A DNA stretch of 64,000 nt from Bacteroidales bacterium. GTDB taxonomy: Bacteria; Bacteroidota; Bacteroidia; Bacteroidales; UBA3824. The notes below the pieces were generated by a model. That model was not told where the DNA came from. It was given only the letters and a program-made list of their open reading frames with translations, and made no database searches. Every line of letters starts with the position of its first letter. Within the stretch, counting starts at the first letter, position 1. Shown piece by piece: positions 4,817-57,434 of this stretch. A program made the position numbers and the translations under genes. The stretch spans positions 1-64,000 of the forward strand of contig JAFXUC010000124.1 of NCBI GenBank assembly GCA_017535325.1, in the 5' to 3' direction.

Positions 4817-4934
4817 TTGTCTAAAAAGCACACGGGCGAAAAATTTTTCGCCCCTACAATGGCGTACAACAACGTGCAACCGTGTAGGGGCGAAAAATTT
4901 TTCGCCCGTTGCATCGTTTTATCTTTTTAGACAA
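4817..4934. mobile_element. Short nested inverted-repeat element (MITE- or REP-like)
   Basis: A 118-base unit bounded by a perfect 12-base inverted repeat, TTGTCTAAAAAG at 4817-4828 and its complement at 4923-4934. Inside are two 26-base arms, 4833-4858 and 4883-4908, that are exact reverse complements, and each arm contains the palindrome GGGCGAAAAATTTTTCGCCC. It encodes nothing. Its right end abuts the higB remnant, whose N-terminal half is missing. No transposase or RAYT gene is in the window, so any movement would be in trans. Clear target duplications were not seen. Confidence 0.7.
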
Positions 4935-51811: not shown

Positions 51812-51876
51812 TTTTTGATTTTTATGTGCGGAAAAATCGCAAAACTTCATATTTTTCCGCACGTAAGAATCAAAAA
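51812..51876. repeat. Hairpin repeat, copy 1
   Basis: Two 26-base arms (51812-51837 and 51851-51876) that are near-perfect reverse complements, with a 13-base loop. The arms share the core ATGTGCGGAAAAAT. It lies one base past the ACT gene's stop and could also end transcription of paaK-ACT. The same sequence recurs at 52633-52690. The right arm overlaps the last bases of the DUF2442 gene. Confidence 0.75.
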
Positions 51877-52280
51877 TTTTTCAAAGCGTTTACGATTTTA
51901 TTAAACCTTTCTGGCGAAGGCTTTTTAATACCGTAAATATATTTTTGAAGCAAAGTTTTATGAATGCCTGCACCGGCGGCGACTGCATTTAAATTCGTAT
52001 CGGGGTATTTCTTGAAAATTTTTGCGGTATCGTTGTCATAGTCGGGTTCTTGCGTTTCATAAAAACTTTCGATTGAAATATCTTCGTCAATATCCGGCCA
52101 GTGAATTTCATCTGCATAAAGTCCGATTTCAAAACGTTGCCGCTGAGTTTCAGAAGCCTCTTTTAAAAGCGGAAAAGCCTCCAACGGACGGCTCAAAACG
52201 TTTGCTTTGTCCGTCTTAATATAAATGCGGTTGTCAGAAAACCAGACTTTTATAATTTTTTCGTCCATAATTTTATTCAT
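51870..52280 (-). CDS. DUF2442-domain protein with C-terminal HTH
   Basis: A 136-residue protein. The first part (IKVWFSDNRIYIKTDKANVLSRPLEAFPLLKEASETQRQRFEI) is the DUF2442 domain; the end (NLNAVAAGAGIHKTLLQKYIYGIKKPSPERFNKIVNAL) is an XRE-like helix-turn-helix. ATG 52280 overlaps the stop of the DUF4160 gene. The pair DUF4160-DUF2442 is widespread and often suggested to be a toxin-antitoxin-like unit, but this is not proven. Confidence 0.82.
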   Translation of the reverse strand: MNKIMDEKIIKVWFSDNRIYIKTDKANVLSRPLEAFPLLKEASETQRQRFEIGLYADEIHWPDIDEDISIESFYETQEPDYDNDTAKIFKKYPDTNLNAVAAGAGIHKTLLQKYIYGIKKPSPERFNKIVNALKNF

Positions 52281-52506
52281 CAAAATATTCGTGCCACGAC
52301 TTTATAATATCTTCTTTGTATTGTTTTACGGCATCAACGGCGCGTTTCAAATCTTTCGGTTTAATGCCTTTGTTTTCAACAACTTCCGCTGTTTCTACAA
52401 CAATTTTCGCCCGACCGTCGCCGTTGGAAACATGAATGTGAACCGGCAAATGTTCGTCGGAATAAAAATAAAAGCGTAAACCAAATAAAAATAAAATTGT
52501 CGGCAT
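52273..52506 (-). CDS. DUF4160-family protein
   Basis: A 77-residue protein with the DUF4160 signature: MPTILFLFGLRFYFYSDEHLPVHIHVSNGDGRAKI, with the His-Ile-His pair in HLPVHIHV. It is followed by the DUF2442 gene with an eight-base overlap, and the two are almost certainly translated together. Proposed to be the partner of a toxin-antitoxin-like module; no activity is established. Confidence 0.85.
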   Translation of the reverse strand: MPTILFLFGLRFYFYSDEHLPVHIHVSNGDGRAKIVVETAEVVENKGIKPKDLKRAVDAVKQYKEDIIKSWHEYFDE

Positions 52507-52540
52507 AATTACATATTGATTTGAAAACTAAAAACTTTTG

Positions 52541-52631
52541 AGCGGGAAACAAGGCTCGAACTCGTATCCTCGCGATTACATATCGCGCGCTCTTCCATTG
52601 GAGAATAAATACTCCATTAAGCTATTCCCGC
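52541..52631 (-). tRNA. Abnormal tRNA-like sequence 1 (anticodon position TGT)
   Basis: Acceptor GCGGGAA/TTCCCGC, T-arm (ACGAG-TTCGAGC-CTTGT), anticodon stem CGCGA/TCGCG and D-stem GCTT/GAGC all pair. But the D-loop is 26 bases instead of 8-11 because it contains a small hairpin (TGGAG ... CTCCA), and base 33, normally T, is A (loop TATGTAA). With the normal register the anticodon is TGT. Whether it is a working tRNA is doubtful. Confidence 0.55.
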
Positions 52632-52632
52632 A

Positions 52633-52690
52633 TTTTTTATGTGCGCAAAAATACTAACTTTTCCGATTTTTCCGCACATAAAAATCAAAA
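52633..52690. repeat. Hairpin repeat, copy 2
   Basis: Left arm TTTTTTATGTGCGCAAAAAT (52633-52652) and right arm (52666-52690) match the element at 51812-51876; the right arm is the reverse complement of that copy's left arm over about 25 bases. It directly abuts the tRNA-like sequence 1. The two copies enclose the DUF4160/DUF2442 pair. Confidence 0.75.
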
Positions 52691-52704
52691 TTTTCTAAAA
52701 AACT

Positions 52705-54159: not shown

Positions 54160-54178
54160 AAAGGATAAGAAAAAATTG

Positions 54179-54305
54179 AGCGGGAAACAAGATTCGAACT
54201 CGTGTCTTCCGCACATACTACTTATATGAAGTGTTTATCAAAATAAATAATATGTGCGGTGCTCTAACCATTGGCAGAAATGCTCTGCCACTAAGCTATT
54301 CCCGC
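54179..54305 (-). tRNA. Abnormal tRNA-like sequence 3 (expanded anticodon and D arms)
   Basis: Ends match sequence 1 (GCGGGAA/TTCCCGC, T-arm ACGAG-TTCGAAT-CTTGT). The D-loop is 28 bases and holds a hairpin GGCAG-AGCATTT-CTGCC. The anticodon stem CCGCA/TGCGG encloses 41 bases, partly paired, instead of 7, so no anticodon can be assigned. This is either a decayed tRNA or a tRNA-like RNA of another role. Confidence 0.5.
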
Positions 54306-54370
54306 ATTTTTAAGTTGCGGCGCAAAAATAGAACTAATTTTTGTCTTTACAAAATTTGCCGAAAGTTTTT

Positions 54371-55802: not shown

Positions 55803-57434
55803 ATGTGCAAAAACATCGTCATAACAGGTTACGGCATAATTTCGGCAACGGAAATAAAGGAAATCAAACATCTTGATTTTCAAGGTTTTACGTATCCTGT
55901 CGGTGAAGTGGATTTTTCTGATTCTGAGTTAAAAAATCAATTAGAAATTGCGGAAGATAAGACCGTCAGCCGCACTGCTTTGCTCGGCATTTTTGCGGTA
56001 AAACAAGCCGCTGAAAACGCCGGTGTTTCTCTTCAAACTTCCGGCAGAAAATTTCTTGTTTCCGGGACAACGGTCGGCGGTATGGATTTGACCGAAAAAT
56101 ATTGGCAGGATATTTACAATCATGCTGATATAATGAGACAGCACGACTCAGGAAGTTGCACGGAATTAATGGGAGAATATTTCGGCTTTTTTGACGATAA
56201 GACTACTATTTCCACCGCTTGTTCGTCGGGCGCAAACGCTATTCTTTTAGGTGCGGAATTGTTGAAAGCTGACAAGGTTGACATAGTTTTTGCGGGTGGG
56301 GCAGAAGCGTTGACAAAGTTTCATTTGTCGGGATTTGCCTCGCTTATGATTTTGGACAAAGAGGTTTGCAGACCTTTTGCTGACGACCGCGCGGGATTGA
56401 ATCTCGGCGAAGGCGCGGCGTTTTTGGTTATGGAAACCGAAGAACACGCCAAAGAGCGCGGTGCAAAAATTCTGTGCCGTTTCAGCGGCGGCGGCAACGC
56501 TTGCGACGCTTTTCACCAGACGGCATCTTCACCAAACGGCGAAGGCGCATATCTCGCTATGACAGAGGCTCTTAAAAACGCCAGCTTGTCACCTGATGAC
56601 ATACAGTATGTCAACGCCCACGGAACGGGAACTGTCAACAACGACGAAAGCGAAAAAGCGGCTTTGAAAAGAGTTTTCGGCGAAAACCTGCCGCAAATCG
56701 AAAGCACAAAAAACATAACGGGTCATACCACGAGCGCGGCTGGTGCGATTGAGGCGGTTATCTGCGTTAAAAAAATTTTAGGCAATCCGGCGTTTAAAAA
56801 CGTGATGGACAACTCTTTCGGCTTTGGCGGCAACGATACATCGCTGATTTTTTCGGCGTTGGAGTTGGAGTGCGGGCATCCCTGCCCGCCAATGGCAGGC
56901 GAGGATGCCTGCACTCCACAAGTTGCGGCAAAAGTTGAATTAACCCAAGAGGACGAAATCGATGAGATAAAAAAAATCTTAAAACCTGCTGAATACCGCC
57001 GCATGGGAAAACTGTTGAAAAGTTCGCTTTTGACATCGCTCAAAGCCTTGAAACAAAGCGGCATAACTACGCCTGATGCAATCATCACGGCAACTTCGCT
57101 CGGCTGTTGGGAAAATTCCGAAAAGATTTTGGATAATTTATCAGAGCCTAAACCGACACTTTTCATGCAGAGCACTCACAACACAATCGGCTCTAACATA
57201 GCGATTTACTTAAAATGCCACGGTTACAATATCACTTATACTCAGGGTTCAGAGTCGCTTGACAAGGCGTTAAGAGACGCTAAAATGCTGCTCGAAAGCG
57301 GCAAATGCAAAAACGTACTTGTCGGACTGCATGAGGAAACCACTGAAAAATACCGCGCCTTAATGCAAAAAAACGGCGTAACGGATTTAAAATCAATTTA
57401 TTCACTGTCACTTGTCTTAACCCGGAAACTATGA
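55803..57434 (+). CDS. Fused beta-ketoacyl synthase and chain-length-factor protein
   Basis: A 543-residue protein with two parts. Residues 1-355 are a complete KS with Cys140 (TACSSG), His273 (NAHGTGT) and His308 (ITGHTTS). Residues about 385-543 match the N-terminal-type KS/chain-length-factor domain seen in aryl polyene clusters (SLGCWENSEKIL, STHNTIGSNIAIYLKCHG), lacking catalytic residues. They are joined by a linker (about 356-375) that is entirely encoded by an inserted palindrome at 56867-56917. It is the first gene of a probable KS-CLF, LolA, GT-AT, MMPL operon (four-base overlap with the next). Confidence 0.88.
   Translation: MCKNIVITGYGIISATEIKEIKHLDFQGFTYPVGEVDFSDSELKNQLEIAEDKTVSRTALLGIFAVKQAAENAGVSLQTSGRKFLVSGTTVGGMDLTEKYWQDIYNHADIMRQHDSGSCTELMGEYFGFFDDKTTISTACSSGANAILLGAELLKADKVDIVFAGGAEALTKFHLSGFASLMILDKEVCRPFADDRAGLNLGEGAAFLVMETEEHAKERGAKILCRFSGGGNACDAFHQTASSPNGEGAYLAMTEALKNASLSPDDIQYVNAHGTGTVNNDESEKAALKRVFGENLPQIESTKNITGHTTSAAGAIEAVICVKKILGNPAFKNVMDNSFGFGGNDTSLIFSALELECGHPCPPMAGEDACTPQVAAKVELTQEDEIDEIKKILKPAEYRRMGKLLKSSLLTSLKALKQSGITTPDAIITATSLGCWENSEKILDNLSEPKPTLFMQSTHNTIGSNIAIYLKCHGYNITYTQGSESLDKALRDAKMLLESGKCKNVLVGLHEETTEKYRALMQKNGVTDLKSIYSLSLVLTRKL
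56867..56917. repeat. REP-like palindrome inserted in frame in the KS-CLF gene
   Basis: Two 24-base arms (56867-56890 and 56894-56917) around AAT, matching as reverse complements in 20 of 24 positions. The insertion keeps the frame and adds about 17 residues (ECGHPCPPMAGEDACTPQ). GC content is much higher than in the host gene. Sequences of this shape occur as dispersed repeats in several bacterial phyla. Confidence 0.8.

Follow-up and report, generated by a model that had tools for sequence, protein, structure and literature searches.

How does a palindromic repeat come to be read as protein between two domains of a single enzyme? The question is raised by a 51-nt palindrome (56867-56917, plus strand; GGAGTGCGGGCATCCCTGCCCGCCAATGGCAGGCGAGGATGCCTGCACTCC) in the 64,000-nt stretch of DNA analysed here (hereafter, the window), which lies inside a 543-codon gene (55803-57434, plus strand) whose reading frame stays open across it. 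Recomputation reproduced all that the preliminary description of this palindrome had stated, namely its 51 bases, the 20 of 24 positions that match between its 24-nt arms, its in-frame position and its high GC content (71%, vs. 46% for the host gene and 41% for the window). RNA folding of the palindrome strand gave -44.6 kcal/mol (z -7.2), and 0 of 200 dinucleotide shuffles were as stable. In Rfam the palindrome had sub-threshold microRNA matches only, which are explained by the hairpin. A second copy was not found inside the window.

The host gene encodes a 543-aa fusion of a KS with a CLF-like Ketoacyl-synt_2 part and has full-length orthologues in the genus. Pfam placed the KS domain (PF00109/PF02801, ketoacyl-synt/Ketoacyl-synt_C) at residues 51-324 (55953-56774, plus strand) and the Ketoacyl-synt_2 part (PF13723) at residues 391-539 (56973-57419, plus strand), so the palindrome does lie between the KS and CLF parts, as had been proposed. 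C140, H273 and H308 are found in the usual KS active-site motifs and are invariant columns in the alignment. The name CLF, as first given to the second part, holds only in the sense of CLF-like; the match to Ketoacyl-synt_2 is short (profile positions 20-163 of 223) and is not a full-length CLF. The locus may encode a fused KS-CLF of an aryl-polyene/DAR-type cluster: the KS and Ketoacyl-synt_2 are in one frame, with the CLF part being short, and the neighbouring genes are LolA, a GT2-acyltransferase fusion, an MMPL exporter, and a second KS. We take this neighbourhood to be compatible with an aryl-polyene or related lipid/pigment cluster. According to the orthologue alignment, the inter-domain linker codons (residues 353-377; 56859-56933, plus strand) are nearly all repeat-derived. 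The peptide predicted across the linker is LECGHPCPPMAGEDACTPQVAAK; the palindrome is read as (L)ECGHPCPPMAGEDACTP. AlphaFold, run with 7 sequences, returned a poor model (mean pLDDT 47) in which residues 354-370 form a low-confidence coil between two strands; this is compatible with a linker but proves little.

The palindrome can be resolved into two REP-like units of 22-23 nt, placed head to head in a BIME-like inverted pair; the unit has the pattern TGGARYGCRGGC-NNNCN-GCCYGC (consensus T-GGA(G/A)(T/C)GC(A/G)GGC, a ~5-nt loop, and GCC(T/C)GC). The left unit (GGAGTGCGGGCATCCCTGCCCGC; 56867-56889, plus strand) and the right unit (GGAGTGCAGGCATCCTCGCCTGC; 56895-56917, minus strand) are both exact unit matches on contig C42 of the source genome (G000). 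The element begins on its left side with a tandem TTGGAGTTGGAG (56859-56870, plus strand), a doublet that is also found 3' of a RAYT transposase gene in relatives (L213/L214/L216). Further genomic copies, for which the preliminary description had suggested a search, are numerous outside the window: the source genome holds 38 exact unit matches at ~27 sites, compared with 0 matches to a reversed control pattern. BLAST with a 76-nt stretch also returned 27 matches in this genome, the weakest of which were at chance level. Judging from its KS-CLF orthologues, the genus consists of Bacteroidales that are uncultured and were sampled mostly from rumen or other ruminant sources, and the unit is present at least once in 16 of its 18 genomes, with a maximum of 69 in G010 and counts of 41, 41, 20 and 15 in other relatives. 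Across 198 genomes from the order, just two stray single matches were obtained besides those of the source genome, at the level of the control. Judging from these searches, the unit is essentially absent from Bacteroidales outside the genus.

When both sides of the variable stem pair were left free, the pair was A-T in 87, G-C in 82 and another combination in 3 of 172 contexts, and therefore the hairpin itself is conserved as nucleic acid. TGGA(G/A)(T/C) precedes the stem in the 171 aligned units, and no GTAG, GTGG or CGTC tetranucleotide was found at the hairpin foot among them. Most copies are intergenic, single or in inverted pairs, with pairs being common; 2 of the ~27 sites in the source genome are in genes by the ORF test. 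A short hairpin unit (in the range of ~20-40 nt) in many copies, mostly extragenic and often in inverted pairs, is what is expected in REP/RAYT systems, and on sequence grounds the anatomy of the repeat is that of REP/BIME elements. A GC-rich palindrome that arose in coding sequence by chance, with no mobile repeat involved, would account for the openness of the frame but not for a genome-wide family whose control pattern has no matches, the stability of the fold, or the lack of the element in orthologues (see below); we regard it as hardly credible. No stop is present in any of the six frames in 98% of the units vs. 61% of shuffles. For the 51-mer itself, composition alone would leave the frames open in 13% of shuffles; six-frame openness is therefore helpful but is no proof of selection for coding.

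Most genomes of the genus have a full-length fused KS-CLF orthologue, and these provide a comparison at the locus itself. In the alignment, the element occupies the linker in six of them (G000, G014, G002, G011, G010, and G007), with that of G010 being an expanded version with one extra arm, and the linker of G008 retains a decayed right arm (GGCAAGGCTACCTGCACTCCAA). Eight same-genus orthologues have no trace of the element and are still fused; in six of these, the linker is 18 residues long and unrelated to the repeat. These results uphold the first reading of the locus as a repeat in a linker: the repeat is genome-wide, lies between domains in an open frame, and has orthologues without it. 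The expectation that 17 residues would be missing from homologues was borne out only as far as element-free orthologues exist, since an unrelated linker of ~18 residues stands there instead. Because these orthologues have a linker of their own, the repeat replaced or displaced a native one. An exact empty-site pair was not obtained for the KS-CLF locus. Linker sequence and length vary across the orthologues (18-33 residues; 21 in the source genome). IEVE follows the remnant in G008, has the counterpart IEIK/IEIE/IETE in element-free orthologues, and is lost in element-bearing genes. Native linker residues were thus probably trimmed after insertion, as far as the aligned sequences can tell.

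The preliminary description had also offered that the repeat arrived when the KS and CLF genes fused, thereby supplying the joining sequence. The position of the element exactly at the junction is in keeping with this, as is the observation that other families of the order often encode the two parts in separate frames (e.g., G018 and G020). However, the eight fused same-genus genomes without the repeat include the deepest branch (G016, G013). As relatives without the repeat are fused too, the repeat was not the maker of the fusion, and we consider its arrival at that time very improbable. A gene tree calculated without the linker places the carriers in two clades, with element-free clades between them, such that two changes are needed; a tree holding the carriers together, as a single-clade origin of the insertion would require, was disfavoured (AU p 0.03). 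Two insertions at one linker, one gain followed by two losses, or gene exchange are possible.

The KS-CLF gene is not the only host. An ORF test over the retrieved unit copies, followed by Pfam, revealed in-frame copies of this repeat in at least seven further gene families within the genus. In the source genome, in-frame units were found in a DUF2201 metallopeptidase-like protein (contig C77), and those with Pfam support in relatives include a TerB_N/TerB_C protein, a WD40 protein, a GT28-type glycosyltransferase, Wzy_C, and Y1_Tnp. An NRPS-like protein (L189:655-3300, L260, L261) has up to four in-frame units exactly between PP-binding (PCP) and the reductase (NAD_binding_4); one distant homologue was the only element-free one found. 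In an Lhr-like helicase (L162:741-3185, L223, L224), the in-frame units lie between DEAD and Helicase_C, their number varies among G010, G002 and G011, and element-free linkers are present in the source genome and several relatives. The Wzy_C O-antigen ligase-like gene (L116:565-2589, L265-L269) has a REP-like coding stretch with a drifting hairpin in all close homologues; no element-free form was found among those compared, and for this reason it is not counted as a shown insertion. By its sequence, the stretch may be an old insertion or a coincidence. Across hosts, the unit is read in at least five different reading frames. The in-gene sites (about 7 of 47 in G010, in addition to the two in the source genome) are a minority, much smaller than the fraction of a bacterial genome that is coding, which would be expected if insertions into genes are mostly removed.

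These hosts bear on a possible recruitment of the repeat to serve as a functional module in linkers, with its sequence, its length or an mRNA hairpin (e.g., through a translation pause) being selected for the enzyme. In-frame copies repeatedly lie between domains (KS/CLF, PCP/reductase, DEAD/Helicase_C) with varying unit number, two separate clades have the repeat in the KS-CLF linker and read it in the same frame, and the element differs between the source genome and G014 at 1 position, compared with a mean of ~7.6 per 54 nt. However, equal conservation is seen in ~8% of the gene's 54-nt windows, eight genomes have intact orthologues that lack the element, the element has decayed in G008, linker sequence and length vary freely, and the linker positions are accounted for by survivorship bias. 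Recruitment of this kind therefore seems quite unlikely to us.

With regard to the mover of the repeat, a Y1/HUH transposase of the RAYT type is a candidate. It is present in G010, G003, G017 and G008, with a fragment in G015. The RAYT-like genes (L160:1781-2677 on contig C44 of G010, L213, L214, L215) contain their own REP units in frame, between an N-terminal segment and the HUH motif, i.e., upstream of HUH. Units also flank the gene in the four relatives, where two direct and one inverted unit directly follow its stop codon. The motifs NHVH and YIHNNP are compatible with RAYT subclass 2.4 or 2.6. Because units lie inside and directly after its gene, the RAYT probably mobilises the repeat. 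The source genome (98% complete) has no match to it at E<=1e-5, and copy number does not follow the presence of the RAYT, with which it agrees only in part: there are 5-8 units in G003 and G017, which have the RAYT, and 38-41 units in G000, G002 and G007, which lack it, in a set in which several of these MAGs are incomplete.

The Y1 transposases of the source genome itself (contigs C62 and C109) were set aside as movers, as they are flanked by different palindromes. The gene on C62 (L083, 950-1400) adjoins two other palindrome families (ccgggggttcacacccccg and gccccgttggggcttt), and that on C109 (L084, 2030-2240) is near repeats of the types cggacacggttttcacaaa and gtccgcccgcc. The window also holds other repeats. 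At 4832-4909 there is a perfect 27-nt inverted repeat (ACGGGCGAAAAATTTTTCGCCCCTACA) of another palindrome family, and at 51813-52700 repeats of 57-67 nt (ATGTGCGGAAAAAT), direct and inverted, surround a 137-aa minus-strand ORF in a MITE- or IS-like arrangement. A tRNA-Trp gene (52540-52631) has a partial tRNA-like copy with its flank ~1.6 kb away (54176-54319), beside a tRNA-Asn.

In-frame palindromic insertions, translated across many unrelated proteins, are established in Rickettsia (RPEs). As described in PMC3733652, RPEs have a CGTC end, and a transposase is not known for them. Passages of the same source report intragenic GTAG/CGTC REPs in many species, often as dimers that contribute 20-30 in-frame residues to diverse proteins, and propose that they are neutral where they lie in linkers or loops. 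The transposase gene of RAYT subclass 2.4, which is abundant in Cyanobacteria and Bacteroidetes, can itself contain in-frame REPs, in most cases between HUH and Y (PMC6006769). The preliminary description had called a repeat coding between two enzyme domains rare. The palindrome does code a linker, but several further genes of the genus have this repeat in frame as well, and in-frame REPs are published (PMC6006769 and the passages on them in PMC3733652). Our family shares with REP/BIME elements and RAYT subclass 2.4 the short hairpins, the inverted pairs, the mostly intergenic setting, the flanking of a Y1 gene, and REPs in the transposase frame. It differs from the subclass in its tag (TGGAG/TGGAA, not GT[AG]G), in internal units upstream of HUH rather than between HUH and Y, and in its occurrence in several unrelated genes and in a genome without a matching RAYT. 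Published REP tags are GTAG/GTGG or CGTC (PMC6006769 and passages of PMC3733652). With the intragenic REPs described in those passages our family has in common the in-frame copies and the linker/loop setting, but it is a different family with a different tag, and a KS-CLF host was not found in the passages of PMC3733652 on intragenic REPs. With RPEs it shares in-frame palindromic insertion in unrelated genes, with translation here inferred from open frames; it is set apart by a consensus without the CGTC end and by belonging to another phylum, as far as RPEs are described in PMC3733652.

Taken together, it is very probable that a REP/BIME-like repeat specific to the genus inserted a copy into the flexible linker of a KS + Ketoacyl-synt_2 enzyme that was fused beforehand, and that this copy took the linker over. 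The repeat would be spread by the IS200-like Y1 transposase (RAYT), its probable driver, which in relatives carries repeats inside its gene and after the stop. As the unit is almost stop-free in any frame and pairs can have a length divisible by three, copies in tolerant linkers would stay translated, and gene-breaking copies would be removed by selection. The effect on the KS-CLF enzyme was presumably near-neutral, with native linker residues being trimmed later. A bolder reading, which we find rather unlikely, is that the family acts as a mobile linker cassette: transposase-borne and six-frame-open, it would insert repeatedly at inter-domain junctions, twice independently in KS-CLF, and its unit number would tune linker length or co-translational folding under selection.

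The process itself has received little notice but is known from Rickettsia RPEs, intragenic REPs, and REPs inside RAYT genes, and the present case is a clear instance of it and not a one-off. New are the repeat family, its tag, and the role of the repeat in Bacteroidales as the sequence of a linker between domains; no new kind of system follows from the tag or the host set. Our results extend in-frame REPs, together with a candidate transposase, to rumen Bacteroidales, and they caution against taking Cys/Pro-rich or Gly-Glu-Pro-Pro-Ala-type peptides of these proteomes, which are translated repeats, for domains. The KS-CLF orthologues form a natural series (no element, element, expanded, decayed) in which a mobile repeat is seen turning into protein sequence between enzyme domains, and in a genus with several such genes this series makes neutral vs. 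useful insertion directly testable.
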